From NCBI GenBank assembly GCA_017478625.1, contig JAFVDF010000009.1, forward strand, positions 248,001 to 312,000: a DNA stretch of 64,000 bases. The letters are read 5' to 3'. This document shows positions 8,846-64,000 of the stretch, one piece after another; position 1 is the first letter of the stretch; every line of letters starts with the position of its first letter. This stretch comes from Alloprevotella sp. Its GTDB lineage: Bacteria; Bacteroidota; Bacteroidia; Bacteroidales; Bacteroidaceae. A program made the translations under genes and the position numbers. The notes below the pieces were generated by a model that made no database searches, was not told where the DNA came from, and saw only the letters and a program-made list of their open reading frames with translations.

Positions 8846-10003
8846 CTAAACCTTCCACACTATTTTATCGGGCGACAGGATAATGCGCTTAGGTTCTCCG
8901 CGTTTTCCATCGACATAATAGTGACGGGCCATATCGTTGGCTATGTTCTGAATAAAGGCTTCCTTGATACGTGCACATTTTTCATTAATTGAGTTGTCAA
9001 ATGGGTCGGTCAGAGCCTCTATATGTTCGTCAATACGCAAGTGTAGATGCGGAGAATAGAGTAAGGGTTTCTTTTCCTTGATGCAAGCATAAATCTGAGC
9101 CAGCTCCTGCTGATAGTCAGCCAGCTCCTTAAATAAAATGCCTTCGGGATGACGTAAGAAAAGAAGAAATACGGACTTTGCAAGCGGAGCCATTTTTATT
9201 TCCATATTCTGATAGTCTGGAAGCCAGATGCGATAGTCTGCATCAATGACTAAATGGCTCAAAGGTGGCTCGGGCCACAGATACTCTCTGAGAAATGCGC
9301 GACTGACACCACCCTTCTCCAACCTCCAAATCCTCTTTTGTATGTCACGAAGTTCTTTGGAGATATCACTGCTGAAGTTTCCATCGGCATCAGTGGGTGG
9401 TACGAGGCGATATTTGACAACTTTTATATTAGGGTCATTGTATCTTTTAGTCCGGCTACGCAACTGTTCCACCATATAGCTACGCAACTGTTCCATCATA
9501 TAATTGGCGTAGCGTGTAGTAAGCTTGCATTCGCTTGTATCTATAGATATGCAGAAAAAGCGGTATTGCCCCTGTGGCAGTTCATAGTCGGATGTTCCTT
9601 CATATTGAAGCAGAAACTGGCCCCGAGCCACATGCTGCTCACTTTCAGCCTTGACAAAACGTAGCAGATAATCGTTGCCGAGCACAGGTCGCTGGGGTTG
9701 TTGTGCCCAACACACCTGAGGGAAATTATATTGCCAGAATTCTGTGTCAGCCACTATCTCCTCACTCAACAGAGGCATATAGACAAATTCCTGATAGTAA
9801 CGGGCGAAAACCTTGTTGAAGGTTTTGTAGCGCCGACGGAAGAACTTGTCGGTAACCTCGTCGTCTGAGCGCGAGGCATAGATTACTTCGCGTGAAGAAG
9901 GCTTAAACGGCAGGTTTTCGAGTATTATTTCGCTGACCGTTGCCGTGTAATGAACTGAAAACAAATTACGAAAGAAGGATTTCATAACACCGCAGATTTT
10001 CAC
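8846..10003 (-). CDS. Conserved hypothetical protein (about 385 residues)
   Basis: Soluble, charged protein that I do not recognise as a named family. A central region (about 160-230) is helical and basic. Around residue 280 the stretch LAKSVFLLFLRHPEGILFKELADY resembles a winged-helix or helical recognition element, so a regulatory role is possible but unproven. It begins at GTG 10003, overlapping the previous gene's TGA by 3 bases, or at the ATG at 9985 (MKSFFRNLF). Within it, an in-frame 24-bp tandem duplication (9455-9502) repeats YMxEQLRS. Confidence 0.7.
   Translation of the reverse strand: MKICGVMKSFFRNLFSVHYTATVSEIILENLPFKPSSREVIYASRSDDEVTDKFFRRRYKTFNKVFARYYQEFVYMPLLSEEIVADTEFWQYNFPQVCWAQQPQRPVLGNDYLLRFVKAESEQHVARGQFLLQYEGTSDYELPQGQYRFFCISIDTSECKLTTRYANYMMEQLRSYMVEQLRSRTKRYNDPNIKVVKYRLVPPTDADGNFSSDISKELRDIQKRIWRLEKGGVSRAFLREYLWPEPPLSHLVIDADYRIWLPDYQNMEIKMAPLAKSVFLLFLRHPEGILFKELADYQQELAQIYACIKEKKPLLYSPHLHLRIDEHIEALTDPFDNSINEKCARIKEAFIQNIANDMARHYYVDGKRGEPKRIILSPDKIVWKV
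9455..9502. repeat. 24-bp tandem duplication inside a coding region
   Basis: Two adjacent 24-bp units, 9455-9478 and 9479-9502, differ at one base (C/T). The duplication keeps the frame and doubles the eight-residue peptide YMMEQLRS/YMVEQLRS. Near identity suggests a recent slippage event. Confidence 0.9.
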
Positions 10004-15996: not shown

Positions 15997-16013
15997 CCCT
16001 ATCGCATCACGCA

Positions 16014-16076
16014 GTTCACAGTATGAAATGTGCGGTTCACAGTGTGAAATTCAAATTTCACATTGTGAACTGCACA
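16014..16076. repeat. 21-bp-period array of TTCACAnTGTGAA dyads (3 units)
   Basis: Three units start at 16014, 16035 and 16056, exactly 21 bp apart. Each carries a near-palindrome of the form TTCACA-n-T(A/G)TGAA at the same phase. Units two and three also face each other, giving a 17-bp inverted repeat (16035-16051 with 16054-16070, one mismatch) that could fold. No T-run follows, so it is not a typical terminator. It sits between the convergent aminopeptidase and recX genes. Confidence 0.75.
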
Positions 16077-16100
16077 AGAGTATTATGCCGTGGGCAGAGG

Positions 16101-16562
16101 CTATAATTCTTTCATCACCTCGAATACTACGGAAGACTCAAAGCCCCTTCCGGCCGCAAAACGCAACAATTTCTGGGCACGCTCATACTCGTTCTTTGCA
16201 CTGACGGAAGGGAGTTTTTCGGTCAGAAGTTCGGTCAGCATACGAGCATAAGCCTCTTCGTCAATGGTAGCAAGGGCTTCATCTATAAGATCTGTATCCA
16301 CATTCTTCATTTCTAAAGCGTGGCGCGTCTTTACCCGGCCCCACCGGTTGAAAAGTGTCTTGTCGTGGACAAATGCACGGGCGTAGCGCATCTCGTCAAT
16401 ATATCCCTCATCCACAAGTCTGTCCACTATCTCATCTACCCAGTCGCGTCGCGCTCCCCACGCATAGAGTTTCTGTCGCACATCGTCGCAGCAGACCTCA
16501 CGATGGGCACACAACGTGGCCGCCTTAAGATAGAGCGTTTCGGAAGTAATCTCTTTTTTCAT
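16101..16562 (-). CDS. recX: RecX-family regulator
   Basis: RecX-type three-helix-repeat protein; family members bind RecA filaments and modulate recombination. The core motif EGYIDEMRYARAFVHDKTLFNRWG and the preceding DDVRQKLYAWGA are typical. I chose the ATG at 16562 (MKKEITSETLY), giving 153 residues. The longer frame from 16637 would overlap the upstream glycosyltransferase and adds sequence without family character. It is the last gene of the glycosyltransferase run, 14 bp after its neighbour. Confidence 0.85.
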   Translation of the reverse strand: MKKEITSETLYLKAATLCAHREVCCDDVRQKLYAWGARRDWVDEIVDRLVDEGYIDEMRYARAFVHDKTLFNRWGRVKTRHALEMKNVDTDLIDEALATIDEEAYARMLTELLTEKLPSVSAKNEYERAQKLLRFAAGRGFESSVVFEVMKEL

Positions 16563-23197: not shown

Positions 23198-23430
23198 GTT
23201 TTGTAGAAAGTTTTCTGCGGAAGCCTCGCATTTCGTCGCTCCATAAGCAAGAAAATCCTATCATTCCCTCCTACGGAAACGGCGTAAGGACGTACACTAT
23301 TCGCCACACGGGTTTTCGCACAACGTAATAAGCGGACGGTCGCCGAAAACAGTAGGACGCTTCAAAGGCGTACGGGTAGCGGCCGGTCTGGCCGTTCTGG
23401 TAAAATTCATTGACATCCGGACGCGATGTT
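23198..23430. other. Intergenic stretch without recognised feature
   Basis: About 230 bp between the TetR promoter and the 21-bp-period array. No gene with a credible start and family resemblance, no tRNA and no hairpin with a T-run was seen. A small GC-rich dyad (GGCCGGTCTGGCC, near 23381) is present. Confidence 0.5.
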
Positions 23431-23598
23431 AAATTATCTTAACGCCTCGGGGCATAATGCAATCGGGCGGCAGAACTATTCATTCCATCTGTGGCATAAT
23501 GGCGTCGCAAAAAAGGCTTATGCAATCTGAAAATCCGATTATACCGTTGGCGAATTGCATTATGGAATTTTTCCGCGCCATAATCCAATTTTTGCATA
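23431..23598. repeat. 21-bp-period array with CATWATG-like core (8 units)
   Basis: Units start at 23431, 23452, 23473, 23494, 23515, 23536, 23557 and 23578, exactly 21 bp apart. Most have an ATWAT core at unit positions 3-7 (GCATAATGC, GCATAATGG, GGCTTATGC, CGATTATAC, GCATTATGG, CCATAATCC). Half of them continue with an AAT/AATTT run, while the rest of each unit is variable. The array lies downstream of the ADP-ribosylglycohydrolase gene and ends against its terminator. Confidence 0.75.
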
Positions 23599-58817: not shown

Positions 58818-61094
58818 TTAAAAGTCGAAACTGCTTGTCTCATTTTGTTCTGGACGACGACGTGGCTGGCGTGGAGCGTGATCTCCCTCGCGACGTGGCC
58901 GACGCTCGTTGTTTTCATTTTCGCGACGAGGGCGACGTGCAGGACGGTCCTCCCAATCGGCAGGTTTCTCCTCCAAAACGCGGTGGCTGAGGCGGAACTT
59001 GCCCGTCTTCTCGTCTATCTCGAGCAGCTTGACGCTAATCGTATCGCCTTCCTTTATGCCGGCTTCTTCTACGGTCTCGAGACGCTTCCATGCAATCTCA
59101 CTGATGTGGAGCAAGCCCTCCTTACCCGGCATAAACTCTACGAAGCAGCCGTAAGGCATAATGCTGACAACCTTTGCCTCGTACACTTCGCCCACTTCGG
59201 GTATGGCAACGATGGCTTTAATCTTTGCCACAGCAGCGTCGATGCTCTCCTTGTCGGGTGCGCTTACCTGAATCTTGCCTACACCGTCTTCTTCGTCAAT
59301 CGTAATAGTGGCACCGGTCACTTCCTGGATGCCCTGTATGATTTTTCCGCCCGGGCCAATGACTGCACCTATGAATTCTTTCGGAATCTCAAAGGCAACG
59401 ATGCGCGGTACGTGAGGTTTGAAGTCGGCGCGTGGTTCTGCAATCGTTTCGGTCAGTTTTCCGAGAATATGCTCACGGCCTTCCTTTGCCTGCAACAGGG
59501 CCTTTTCCAAAATCTCATAAGACAATCCGTCGCACTTGATATCCATCTGGGTGGCTGTAAGACCGTTTACGGTTCCCGTAGTCTTGAAGTCCATATCGCC
59601 AAGGTGGTCTTCATCGCCCAGAATATCGGACAGGATGGCATACTTGTCCTCGCCTGGATTTTTGATAAGGCCCATGGCAATTCCGCTTACAGGATTCTTC
59701 AAGGGAACGCCTGCGTCCATCAACGAAAGCGTGCCGGCGCAAACTGTGGCCATCGAACTGGAACCGTTGCTCTCCAAAATGTCGCTTACAACCCTTACAG
59801 TGTAGGGGAAGTCGGCCGGAATCTGATCTTTCAGGCCTCGCCAAGCCAGATGGCCGTGCCCGATTTCACGACGGCCTACGCCACGCTGTGCTTTCGCCTC
59901 GCCCGTAGAGAACGGAGGGAAGTTGTAGTGCAGGAGGAAGCGCTGATAACTCTTGTCCAGTACGTCGTCAATCAACTTCTCGTCCAGCTTGGTGCCGAGC
60001 GTAGTTGTAGCGAGCGCCTGAGTCTCTCCGCGAGTGAAGATCGCACTTCCGTGAGGTCCTGGCAGCGGATCTACTTCGCACCAGATGGGGCGAATGTCCG
60101 TAGTGGCACGTCCGTCGAGTCGCTTGCCCTCGTCCAGAATGCAACGGCGCATAGCGTCGCGCTCTACATCGTGATAGTAGCGGTCGATAAGTCCGTTCTT
60201 TTCTTCCAGCTCATCGGCCGACAACTCGGCGTGAGCCTCGGCATAGCGTACCTTAAAGTCTTCGCGAATCTGCGTAAAGGCTTCTTCGCGCTGGTGCTTA
60301 TCGTGGTCGCCTGCCTGAGCAATGGCGTAAGCGGGCTGATAACACTCTTTCTTTACCAGTTCGCGCAATTCTTCATCATTTACCTCGTGGCAATATTCGC
60401 GCTTTACATCTGTGCCCAGTTCCTTCATCAATTCTTTTTGCAGACGGCACATTGGCTTAATAGCCTCATGGGCTGCTTTCAACGCACCGAGAAGTGCGCT
60501 CTCAGGAACTTCCTTCATCTCACCTTCTACCATCATGATGTTCTCTTCGGTAGCGCCGACCATAATGTCCATATCGGCGTGAGTCAGTTGCTCAAAGGTA
60601 GGATTGATTACAAACTCTCCGTTGATTCGGGCCACACGTACTTCCGAGATAGGGCCCTCGAAAGGTATGTCGGAGCAAGCCAAAGCGGCCGAAGCGGCGA
60701 AACCTGCCAGCGCGTCCGGCATATCTACACCGTCGGCACTGAAGAGAATTATGTTGACGAATACTTCTGCGTGATAGTTGGAGGGGAACAGCGGACGAAG
60801 CGCGCGGTCCACGAGGCGAGAGGTCAGTATCTCATAGTCGCCTGCACGGCCTTCTCTGCGCGTAAATCCGCCGGGAAAGCGTCCGGCAGCAGAATATTTT
60901 TCTTTATAATCGCACTGTAACGGCATAAAATCGGTGCCTGGAACAGCATCTTTGGCGCCTACGACGGTGGCAAGGAGCATTGTGTTGTTCAGGCGGAGCA
61001 TTACGGCGCCGTCCGCCTGTTTTGCCAATTTTCCAGTCTCTATGCTGATGGTACGTCCATCGGGCAGGGAGACGGTCTTAGTGATCACATTCAT
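58818..61094 (-). CDS. pnp: Polyribonucleotide nucleotidyltransferase
   Basis: PNPase, a phosphorolytic 3'-5' exoribonuclease of the RNA degradosome type, 758 residues. Two RNase PH domains are present ([22 protein letters not shown] near 75-95 and [30 protein letters not shown] near 330-360). They are followed by a KH domain ([25 protein letters not shown]) and an S1 domain ([32 protein letters not shown]). The C-terminus is Arg/Pro/Glu-rich and low in complexity, as in other Bacteroidetes. A -7 box TAAATTTG is at 61142-61149 on the minus strand. Confidence 0.97.
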
Positions 61095-61180
61095 CTTTCG
61101 TGTGTTCTAAATTAATTATTACTTACTTCTCTAAAATCGCGCAAATTTAGGAAATCATTGGCACATAGCATCGTCCTGCA

Positions 61181-61411
61181 CCATATTTCTTTCAATCTAC
61201 GCCATAATTCGCCCCATCTGCGGAAGGGACAAACGCTCATCTTCTACCGAGAAACCGGCGCGTTTTCCGTAGCTTCTTTTAGCTTGTATTATGGGACGAA
61301 AAAATTGCATAATGCCATTACGAAATTGCATAATGGAATTTTGAAATTGTATAATGCAATTTTCCCATTGCATTATGGGATTTTATGACTGCATAATGGG
61401 ATTTTTCAAGC
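61181..61411. repeat. 21-bp-period array with CATWATG core (6 tandem units plus 2 in-phase outliers)
   Basis: Six contiguous units start at 61286, 61307, 61328, 61349, 61370 and 61391, exactly 21 bp apart; consensus about GCATAATGGGATTTTGAAATT. Two more CCATAT/CCATAAT units, at 61181 and 61202, keep the same phase (84 and 105 bp upstream), with three degenerate periods between. It lies just upstream of the pnp promoter and downstream of the S41 protease gene. The remaining 61412-61550 holds nothing recognisable. Confidence 0.85.
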
Positions 61412-61550
61412 CGCAAATCGGATGGTTGTGGAAGCCGTTCAAAAGCGAGTGTAAGTACCGCGCGCCAAAGGAACGGCATTATACCTACACGGGGGCTGAT
61501 AACGGCACCGCACCATACGAATACCGCATTACTCAAACGGTGCTTTCGGG

Positions 61551-63218
61551 CTATTTCCCGGCTGGGGCAGCGAGGATACTACGGTATCGGGCGTCATCGC
61601 AGATGAGGCGCAAGGCTTCGGAAAGGTCTTTGTCGGCCCGTAGCGCATAGACCTGTGTGCCTCGCTGATAATAGTAGCGACTAAGCAGGGCGCCCTCAAC
61701 CACTTGCCGGATATCACTCTCCCAACGCGTGAAGTCGAAATCTTCGTTTTTGCTTAGTTTGTCTTCCAGCGCGGCAAAGGCCTCGGAAGCCACCTCGGTG
61801 TAACCCTCCATGTCGGCTATGCGCCGGAGCGTCTGCAGGGCGGTGCGACTTTGCGAGTCGTACGTAAATCCGTGGTCTTTAAGGAACTGGCGAAATTCGC
61901 AGTATTCCTCAGCCGAGAGACTGAAGGTGTCAGGCGAAGCGATTGTGGGATGGTGTAATTGGTAGTCACTGCAAAAATCCATAAGGGCATCGCTGACTTC
62001 CAGATAGGAGATAAGGAGCGGCAGGCTATCGAGTTTTACTTCTACGTCAGGCCTGATGCCTCCTCCGTCGCGCACGGAGCGTCCTGCGGCAGTATGGAAT
62101 TCTGCGGAAACACTGTCGGACAGATGTACGGGCATACCGTTCTGATAGCGATAAGCCTGTATGCAACGCCCTGAAGGGATATAGTATTTGCTGGTAGTGA
62201 GTTTCAGAATGGCCCCATAAGGCAATTGGCGGGCCTCCTGGACAAGTCCTTTCCCGTACGTATTGCGCCCGACGATTACTGCGCGGTCGTAGTCCTGCAG
62301 TGCCCCACTTGTAATCTCGGCGGACGATGCGGTGTTGAAATCCACCAGTACGACGAGGGGAATCTGCGTATCGAGTGGCGCGTCTTCTGTATGATAGACT
62401 GTGTTTTCCCGCTTGATTTTTCCTTTTAGCCGGACTACCTCTTTGCCCCGAGGCACAAACATTCCGACCACCTTGACGGCCTGATCGAGAAGTCCGCCCG
62501 GATTGCCACGCAGGTCCAGTATCAGACGCTTGGCTCCGAGTTGCTTGACGCGGGCAAGGGCTAATTTGAGTTCGTGAGCCGTGTTTTCATTGTAACTGCT
62601 CAGACAGATGTAGCCCACACTATCCTGCAGGACGGTATCCAGCTGTACCGAAGGCAGGGAAATAGTGCGTCGGGTGATGCGAAAGGCTAACGGCTCGGCA
62701 AACCCGTGACGTCGCACACGAAGTTCGAAGGTTGTACCCAAATCTCCGCGCAACGAACCACTTACCTCGTTGGAATACGCCGCCGTATTCGTGCCGTCGC
62801 AATCGCCATAATCGCGTCCGTCGATAGAAAGGAGCACGTCGCCGGCATGCAGTCCGGCCTCGGCCGCAGGCGTATGGGCATAAGGCTCAGCCACGACACA
62901 GCGCTTCAGCGAAGGGCGGTACTGGATGAGCGCACCGATGCCACCGTATTTCCCAGTAGTGATCTGCTTGAGTTCAGAGAGGTTGTCGTCGGCATAATAC
63001 TCGGTGTAAGGGTCAAACTGATTGAGCATATAGACCAGAGCCGTCTCTATGTTTTTTTTCGCATTGAGCGAATCGACATAATAGAGTTCCAGTTCGCGAT
63101 ATGCGGAGTTGAAAATGTCGAGGTTCTTCGAAATTTCAAAATTATGGTCAGCCTGCGACTGCGCAAAGCCCCTGCCGGCCGACAGCATAAGCAGACAGAA
63201 GAAAAGAATCTTTTTCAT
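61551..63218 (-). CDS. S41 C-terminal processing peptidase
   Basis: Exported carboxy-terminal processing protease of 555 residues. A signal peptide (ending RGFAQ) is followed by a PDZ domain (about 85-175, GGIGALIQYRP, HTPAAEAGLHAGDVLLSIDG) and the S41 catalytic core. There the Ser is in FNTASSAEITSGAL and the Lys in NTYGKGLVQEA, and LILDLRGNPGGLLDQAVKV is the family strand. It probably trims or degrades periplasmic proteins. It directly follows the PfkB kinase gene, with one base between stop and start. Confidence 0.93.
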   Translation of the reverse strand: MKKILFFCLLMLSAGRGFAQSQADHNFEISKNLDIFNSAYRELELYYVDSLNAKKNIETALVYMLNQFDPYTEYYADDNLSELKQITTGKYGGIGALIQYRPSLKRCVVAEPYAHTPAAEAGLHAGDVLLSIDGRDYGDCDGTNTAAYSNEVSGSLRGDLGTTFELRVRRHGFAEPLAFRITRRTISLPSVQLDTVLQDSVGYICLSSYNENTAHELKLALARVKQLGAKRLILDLRGNPGGLLDQAVKVVGMFVPRGKEVVRLKGKIKRENTVYHTEDAPLDTQIPLVVLVDFNTASSAEITSGALQDYDRAVIVGRNTYGKGLVQEARQLPYGAILKLTTSKYYIPSGRCIQAYRYQNGMPVHLSDSVSAEFHTAAGRSVRDGGGIRPDVEVKLDSLPLLISYLEVSDALMDFCSDYQLHHPTIASPDTFSLSAEEYCEFRQFLKDHGFTYDSQSRTALQTLRRIADMEGYTEVASEAFAALEDKLSKNEDFDFTRWESDIRQVVEGALLSRYYYQRGTQVYALRADKDLSEALRLICDDARYRSILAAPAGK

Positions 63219-63219
63219 T

Positions 63220-64000
63220 TTATACGAAATAGGGGCGCAACTCTTCCCATGCGGTTTCGCTGGGGGACGCTCCCATAGTTTGTATTACTTTTGAAGCCAG
63301 CATTGCGCCCCGCGACAGACAATCGCGCAGACTCTCGCCTCGGTTGAGCGCCCAGAGGAATCCTGCTGCAAAACTGTCGCCCGCACCGGTTGTGTCCAAC
63401 ACGTGGTCCACCTTGACGGCATCGACATGGCATATTTCTTCTCCACGCTTTGCCCACGCTCCATCGGCGCCTACTTTGACCACAGCCACTTCGCAAATGT
63501 TGGAAAGCACTTTCAACGAAACGGTGGGGTCGGACAGACGGGTAAATGCGGCCGCCTCGTCTTCGTTGGCAAAGATAATATCCACGTCCTCCAACAAACG
63601 GACAAAAAAGTCGTGGTCGCCAGCCACTATGTTATAGTTGCCAAAATCCAGGCTTATCTTAAGTCCGGCCTCCTTAGCCAAACGGACTGCGCGCAGTATG
63701 AGGTCGTGGTTTTGGGCCAGGTAACCCTCCAGATGAAGCACGTCGTAGGCTGAAAACCAGCGCGCATCAAGCTCTTCAGCCTGCATATTGGCCGCTGCGC
63801 CTAAGTAGTCGAACATGGTGCGCTGACCGTCGGGCGACACAAGGGAGAGGCAGATACCCGAGGGTAAGTCGTCGGTCAGGAAATGGGTCTGAATGCCGTG
63901 GCGCACACAGTTGTCAATATACGCATGCCCGGGCGCATCATCGCCCACCTTGCCTATAAAGCCAGGCGAAGCTCCTAATCGGCCAAGGGCCTGTATGGTG
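63220..64000 (-). CDS. PfkB-family carbohydrate/nucleoside kinase (5' partial)
   Basis: Ribokinase-superfamily kinase. The frame is open to the window edge on the minus strand (upstream codons read TIQALGRLGASPGFIGKVG), so the start is outside. Motifs are GFIGKVGDDAPG (N-terminal region), VVKVGADGAWAKRG and the catalytic signature DTTGAGDSFAAGFLWAL with the base Asp. The LxxLGA...FDYLGAA region and length fit the adenosine/sugar kinase branch common in Bacteroidales, but the substrate cannot be read. It precedes the S41 protease gene in one transcript. Confidence 0.87.
   Translation of the reverse strand, partial: TIQALGRLGASPGFIGKVGDDAPGHAYIDNCVRHGIQTHFLTDDLPSGICLSLVSPDGQRTMFDYLGAAANMQAEELDARWFSAYDVLHLEGYLAQNHDLILRAVRLAKEAGLKISLDFGNYNIVAGDHDFFVRLLEDVDIIFANEDEAAAFTRLSDPTVSLKVLSNICEVAVVKVGADGAWAKRGEEICHVDAVKVDHVLDTTGAGDSFAAGFLWALNRGESLRDCLSRGAMLASKVIQTMGASPSETAWEELRPYFV

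Follow-up and report, generated by a model that had tools for sequence, protein, structure and literature searches.

One of the three arrays of 21-bp units in the window, as we call the whole 64-kb stretch of DNA that was analysed, occupies the space between two co-directional genes, pnp and the gene of an S41 peptidase (Table 1). Its units start at 61286, 61307, 61328, 61349, 61370 and 61391, in the exact 21-bp steps that a preliminary description of this DNA had reported for six adjacent units. Lag-21 identity across 61286-61411 is 0.70 versus 0.283 ± 0.043 in 2000 shuffles (largest 0.467), and with 76 matches in 105 this is the top lag-21 stretch of the window (mean 29.2, sd 5.3). A period of 21 at this array was also reported by TRF. 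The description had further placed two outlying units in the same phase. Both are in register, with cores lying exactly five and four periods ahead of the first strong core, but their words are weaker and degenerate. The segment 61181-61285 by itself reaches a lag-21 identity of 0.429, which is also the maximum over 2000 shuffles. The proposed distinction from CRISPR holds as well: the 21-bp units are contiguous and carry degenerate words, unlike near-identical repeats with unique spacers.

Table 1. Arrays of 21-bp units in the window and the genes flanking the array upstream of pnp.
Feature	Position	Strand	Details
pnp, polyribonucleotide nucleotidyltransferase	58818..61094	minus	flanking gene, outside array
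Two weak in-phase units	61181..61222	.	offset -5 CATATTT 61182, offset -4 CATAATT 61203; words degenerate, phase kept
Class A array, six 21-bp units	61286..61411	.	cores TATTATG 61287, CATAATG 61308, CATAATG 61329, TATAATG 61350, CATTATG 61371, CATAATG 61392
S41 C-terminal processing peptidase	61551..63218	minus	flanking gene, outside array
Second class A array	23425..23592	.	AATTATC, CATAATG, AACTATT, CATAATG, GCTTATG, GATTATA, CATTATG, CATAATC at 21-bp steps
Class B array	16011..16115	.	three TTCACASTGTGAA-type units 16015, 16036, 16057 (mismatches 1, 0, 1), then in phase A-like TATTATG 16081, TATAATT 16102

A separate tandem repeat in the window, GCTACGCAACTGTTCCACCATATA, has a unit of 24 bp and two copies at 9455-9502 (TRF score 89).

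Two core classes on one lattice

The genome of the window (G000) comprises 1.26 Mb and is 59% complete; its genes suggest a member of the Bacteroidota. Three of its contigs, fetched nearly whole (870 kb), were surveyed for arrays, and ORF lists served as gene calls in all comparisons. With the window array as query, 23 matches were obtained in this genome, the query included; owing to the palindromic units, several loci were hit on both strands. Some of the loci fetched from these matches hold a single word and no array. The word TGCATWATGSNATTTT occurs 50 times at up to one mismatch, versus 0 times for the reversed control. A search for the core motif, as envisaged in the preliminary description, found CATWATG arrays on the 21-bp spacing across the genome; these arrays, here called class A, mostly have five or six units. 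Class B, first met where the lattice ran on in two loci, has the palindromic core TTCACASTGTGAA and mostly three units. Its core was found 122 times at up to one mismatch (control 0), and nearly all of the exact B sites listed form pairs or triplets with a spacing of exactly 21 bp. In the surveyed 870 kb, 37 arrays exceed the stricter cut-off versus 0 in the reversed sequence, and a looser cut-off with at least three units yields 38, of which 37 have flanking genes on both sides. All nine strict arrays of contig C10 (250 kb; loci L137-L149) belong to class B, and contigs C15 and C5 mix A and B. Judging from C10, a regional preference of core class along the chromosome is possible.

Twenty-one base pairs correspond to two helical turns. 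Where exact CATWATG cores are less than 130 bp apart, their distance is a multiple of 21 bp for 54 of 65 pairs in G000 and for 86 of 89 pairs in a sister species (G042), the off-lattice pairs being mostly displaced by one or two bases. Exact B core pairs keep to multiples of 21 bp in 44 of 44 cases (spacing 21 in 31, spacing 42 in 13). An excess at lag 21 beyond the pnp locus, a test set beforehand, was indeed found: in a motif-free scan of 400 kb of contig C15, lag 21 gave 20 peaks, and the other lags from 15 to 49, except 42, gave at most one each. A control of 100 kb from E. coli K-12 gave one lag-21 peak. Information in the A unit amounts to about 1.6-1.8 bits at AT and AT of ATWAT, about 0.85-1.1 bits at ±6/7 and 0.06-0.08 bit at the outermost position, and in the B core to 1.8-2 bits (centre 0.9), with 0.1-0.2 at the two outermost positions; the units were chosen by their core, mismatches allowed, and the contrast between core and spacer is partly built in. 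This core-based selection does not account for the peaks at ±6/7 or for the empty spacer. The earlier suggestion of a protein on one face of the DNA fits cores that are less variable than spacers, again with part of that contrast built in, and binding would be a reading of this geometry.

Around 21 B arrays (42 flanks), A-like words continue on the lattice with frequencies of 0.60, 0.52, 0.38, 0.21, 0.14, 0.17, 0.12 and 0.05 at offsets 1-8, and off the lattice such words have frequencies of 0.01-0.03. The B units are therefore placed centrally in a long A lattice, which fades outwards and extends up to about 300 bp. Pure A arrays have sharp bounds except for an excess at offsets 1 (0.29) and 4. 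At offset 4, the position of the outlying window unit at 61203, a core-like word is present in 0.21 of 34 flanks (17 arrays; about 7 flanks, the window's own included) versus 0.01 off the lattice.

Placement along the chromosome

Each of the 37 G000 arrays that have a gene on either side lies in an intergenic gap. In 20 cases the two neighbours are co-directional, in 11 convergent and in 6 divergent; the corresponding numbers for all G000 gaps of at least 100 bp are 142, 42 and 59. In G042, 7 of 34 arrays fall inside ORFs as called, which is attributed to putatively over-extended ORF starts. The arrays are evenly spaced. The pooled CV of their spacing is 0.49 in G000 versus 0.90 ± 0.13 for random intergenic gaps, and 0.46 versus 0.93 ± 0.14 in G042; 0 of 5000 simulations were as low in either genome. 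The smallest gap between G000 arrays is also too large for chance in the same simulations. Per contig, the mean distance between arrays is 18-26 kb in G000 and 7-11 kb in G042. That the arrays are evenly spaced and follow no particular gene direction suggests a chromosome-level role.

Alternatively, the arrays might be operators or enhancers of a large regulon, located near promoters and bound, for example, by an NtrC-type sigma-54 activator. Among named genomes, exact B pairs were found in one Elusimicrobia MAG only (JAFGLF01). Two of its loci (L116, 2724-2786; L115, 1164-1205) contain TTCACASTGTGAA units at 21 bp followed by TTGGCAATAAAATTGATA, which resembles a sigma-54 promoter, and the L116 units come directly after the gene of an NtrC-type response regulator. 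A regulon is favoured by this arrangement and by the presence in G000 of a protein similar to the Elusimicrobia regulator. However, the 9 sites at up to one mismatch in the Elusimicrobia genome include two such arrays, and these are probably an unrelated enhancer of a sigma-54 activator. Moreover, the gene contexts in G000 are mixed and include convergent gaps, even chromosomal spacing is not expected of a regulon, and the genes beside the arrays, judged by their start residues, are presumably diverse, with several housekeeping genes among them. We regard the regulon as quite improbable.

The arrays could also be wrapping sites of a general DNA enzyme such as gyrase, in which case phasing by 10.5 bp would be primary and the words secondary. 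Helical phasing, the long lattices around B, AT-rich segments off the core and even spacing would all agree with wrapping. The B words recur with few mismatches, however, and the cores differ between species (see below) although such enzymes are conserved. Wrapping is very improbable.

Sister species and other relatives

The nearest relative by pnp is G042 (95% identity). Upstream of its pnp, units are found at distances from the start codon identical to those in G000; they are in phase, as anticipated for a sister strain, with weaker words and a score (5.4) under the strict cut-off. Positions were compared in 129 conserved neighbouring gene pairs, 6 of them containing a G000 array. With the loose cut-off, 5 of these 6 positions also carry an array in G042 (Fisher one-sided p = 1.7e-4), and 4 of the 5 are B in G000 and A in G042; low scores (5.1 and 5.4) mark two of the five arrays in G042 as weak. 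The strict cut-off keeps 3 of 6 positions (p = 0.025), and all three are B in G000 versus A in G042. The B core has 0 sites in G042 (control 1). A smaller, preceding table of G000/G042 gene pairs had read 53, 2, 4 and 2. Thirteen further G042 arrays lie in conserved gene pairs without a G000 array, and 5 of 18 have a G000 partner, so array turnover is considerable. Positional conservation and class exchange are supported by few loci, three to five, of one species pair.

The cores are species-specific. Among 58 genomes of the genus, A pairs number 65 in G000, 272 in G042 and at most 9 in the others (controls mostly 0-4, in two genomes 9 and 35), and B pairs number 82 in G000, 12 in G033 and 0 in the other 56 (controls 0). 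BLAST of the window array against 30 relatives (18 of the same genus, G042 not included) gave no match at E 0.001, because the cores differ. In motif-free lag scans of seven other species (one 100-kb sample each), lag-21 peaks number 15 in G040, 10 in G007, 5 in G037, 4 in G034, 2 each in G032 and G035, and 1 in G003; other lags have means of 0.09-0.39 and maxima of 1-3. Within ORFs of at least 150 aa lie 5, 3, 1 and 0 of the peaks of G040, G007, G037 and G034, so that 10, 7, 4 and 4 remain. Lag-21 arrays with different cores are found in four of the seven sampled species, and in G033. G003, G032 and G035 are level with the E. coli control, the array-free sample of G003 being compatible with arrays elsewhere in that genome. 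Core words are GAGGCGTCG and AGACCTTTT in G040, GCAGTGCTTG in G007, CCTTATTG and GTCAGC in G034, and CTCAGAG in G037. Pairs of exact copies of these words fall on multiples of 21 bp, where chance is a twenty-first, in 11/11 (GAGGCGTCG) and 7/12 (AGACCTTTT) cases in G040, 5/12 and 5/10 for two G007 words, 15/42 and 17/101 in G034, and 8/23 in G037. Part of the off-lattice pairs we read as words in opposite orientation, with centres displaced by one or two bases.

Among 29 regions upstream of pnp, those of G007 and G045 carry units with a word of their own, recognised by these words (their lag-21 score of 41/84 is equalled by other regions), and that of G006 has a 22-bp palindrome. In G054 (L255), a near-identical 22-bp minisatellite, AATTTTTTGTCTCCCTGGGGGC, stands in tandem about 620 to 444 bases before pnp and is possibly a young relative of the arrays. 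G062 (L254) has about ten tandem copies of a GC-rich 21-bp unit of GCCGCCAAGGG type, roughly 390 to 180 bases ahead of its pnp; they may be coding heptad repeats or an array. In comparisons with distant relatives, 63 and 18 conserved gene pairs held no G000 or G042 array, and the relatives' own 3 and 1 places above the cut-off had no partner. Two of the three represent a place shared by G032 and G035, which was first taken as an array and then dropped, as it lies inside an ORF of 423-431 aa in both. Across 393 genomes of the order, with G000 as the sole member of its genus, three A cores at 21 bp occur 19 times in G000 and 1-5 times in six others, the words listed for these six resembling minisatellites or coding repeats. 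A viral origin was considered and rejected: the B pair has 0 matches in viral contigs, and the two matches of the A pair were, on inspection, not arrays.

In G033 (L161-L165), four B units are flanked by 21-bp GC-rich GGCTGACAGAAA lattice words that point inward from both sides. Five copies have spacers in common, unlike those of G000, plus AAAGTC...GACTTT ends, and some G007 copies have ends of the GCGAAAAT...ATTTTTG type in common. These likenesses favour a modular, non-autonomous mobile element (MITE-like; compare BrickBuilt) with an internal minisatellite, the copies of which would be spaced by the target immunity of a transposase. Target immunity could produce even spacing. The arrays are also discrete, intergenic and lineage-specific, the tandem repeat of G054 is near-identical, and the low share of G042 arrays with a G000 partner would suit mobility. 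In G000 and G042, however, the cores vary little and the spacers drift, which is not expected of recent or decaying copies; the units mostly keep exact phase despite low identity; and some positions are common to the sister species with the core class exchanged. Dyad ends were seen in G033 and some G007 copies; eight locus alignments of G042 and G000, inspected by eye, revealed no clean junction and no target duplication, and the 23-nt BrickBuilt unit has matches in 0 of the 58 genus genomes at up to three mismatches. A mobile element appears rather unlikely as the source of the arrays.

At the RNA level, the units might form tandem hairpins in 3' untranslated regions that act, REP-like, as terminators or stabilisers of mRNA. 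Such a role would suit units that are palindromes, lie between genes and are often close to a gene's 3' end (median distance 89.5 bp in G000), and the RAYT-type Y1 transposase (PF01797) has matches in G007, G040, G037, G045 and G006, genomes with arrays or array-like units. However, PF01797 has two matches in the array-poor G003 and none in G000 (incomplete, as stated), G042, G033, G034 (99% complete, with arrays), G035 or G032; RAYT transposases do not track the arrays. Compensatory change between units is without clear excess, and inverted versus direct similarity among units showed no consistent inverted excess. Non-consensus inverted core pairs number 8 in G042 (4.65 expected) and 4 in G000 (3.68), and direct pairs 7 (5.95) and 1 (3.48), respectively. 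Neighbouring units at times resemble perfect inverted repeats (for example in L006 and on contig C1 of G042 near 103.9 kb), but counted across the A arrays such pairs are in no clear excess. An Rfam search of positions 60000-64000 of the window returned no family reaching the gathering score, only two weak microRNA matches far below it, and it is not obvious what a period of exactly 21 bp would mean for RNA hairpins. A function as RNA hairpins is very unlikely.

Predicted function and known systems

The architecture of the arrays is well supported, and from it we infer a function. Palindromic cores, free spacers and the exact two-turn spacing would, by helix geometry, imply a dimeric protein that assembles on one helix face. 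With moderate confidence, we propose that the arrays are chromosome-wide phased binding platforms for an oligomerising, predicted chromosome-organising protein, whose specificity changes quickly while the 21-bp geometry stays. A sequence-specific protein would bind the palindromic cores as a dimer, and the dimers might polymerise side by side on one DNA face, one per two helical turns. Strong central units (B TTCACASTGTGAA, or A blocks of five or six CATWATG units) would nucleate the assembly, and the weaker A-like units, fading over about seven periods on each side of B, would support spreading; nucleation and spreading are suggested by the fading flanks. Intergenic platforms at mean distances of 18-26 kb (7-11 kb for the sister species), with no uniform orientation of the genes around them, would then most likely organise or anchor the chromosome, as opposed to controlling single genes. 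Dispersed palindromic sites, a trait of organising systems of the MatP/SlmA/Noc kind, were found here as 37 arrays in 870 kb with over-regular spacing. Recognition words would swap between species, sometimes at the same chromosomal place, with the geometry kept, and the B-in-A arrays of G000 may represent a word replacement under way. That words change and the lattice persists suggests that specificity evolves at a fixed oligomer geometry.

A more specific scenario is tentative and somewhat doubtful. The word of an oligomerising protein on evenly spaced 21-bp lattices would have been replaced genome-wide between close species, array by array and in place, with lattice and positions persisting, and the coexisting A and B specificities would be a snapshot of this process. 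Against binding platforms for an oligomerising protein speak the near-E. coli level of G003, G032 and G035, with one or more of the peaks inside an ORF in both G032 and G035, and the spacers of G033, which are alike between copies as in a copied element; no candidate binding protein was found. The arrays look like an undescribed chromosome-organising system, with the same 21-base spacing and different words in several related species, and no description of such an array system was found in the open-access PMC literature. If this is true, it offers a rare chance to follow the co-evolution of a protein and its entire set of sites: at dozens of sites, the geometry and partly the places were kept and the word was changed between sister species. 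It would also suggest a lineage-specific partitioning of the bacterial chromosome into intervals of roughly 7-26 kb.

According to the description of BrickBuilt from Porphyromonas gingivalis, this repeat has 23-nt units without spacers and inverted repeats in leader and tail, and it resembles the arrays in being made of intergenic, dispersed, species-specific short tandem units with a fixed period (PMC4596501). The present arrays differ in their 21-bp units, palindromic cores, drifting spacers, two classes, even spacing and, in some cases, class exchange in place. REP/BIME sequences, which are linked to RAYT transposases, are short extragenic palindromes, lineage-specific and present in many copies, and the arrays share these traits (PMC3733652). 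Unlike REP/BIME, four array-bearing genomes have no RAYT-type gene found, and hairpin covariation is not clear. REPs are not known to form a helical lattice. Chromosomal palindromic sites are also a feature of ParB-parS and Noc-NBS; in both, the consensus site (parS or NBS) is single and 16 bp long, and the specificity of ParB and Noc diversifies between family members (PMC7383237). Inserting three bases into the parS half site gives the B half site TTTCAC/GTGAAA. This likeness prompted us to consider ParB as the array protein, and the idea is not favoured: a census of 12 genomes found one ParB in 9 of them, two in G045 and none in the incomplete G000 and G042, with no expansion of paralogues to parallel the variation in cores. 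Unlike parS and NBS, the sites described here are multi-unit arrays with cores that differ by species. Plasmid centromeres of the ParR/parC type are helix-phased tandem protein sites for side-by-side assembly, one per plasmid. The arrays differ from such a centromere in that dozens of them stand at even distances on a chromosome.
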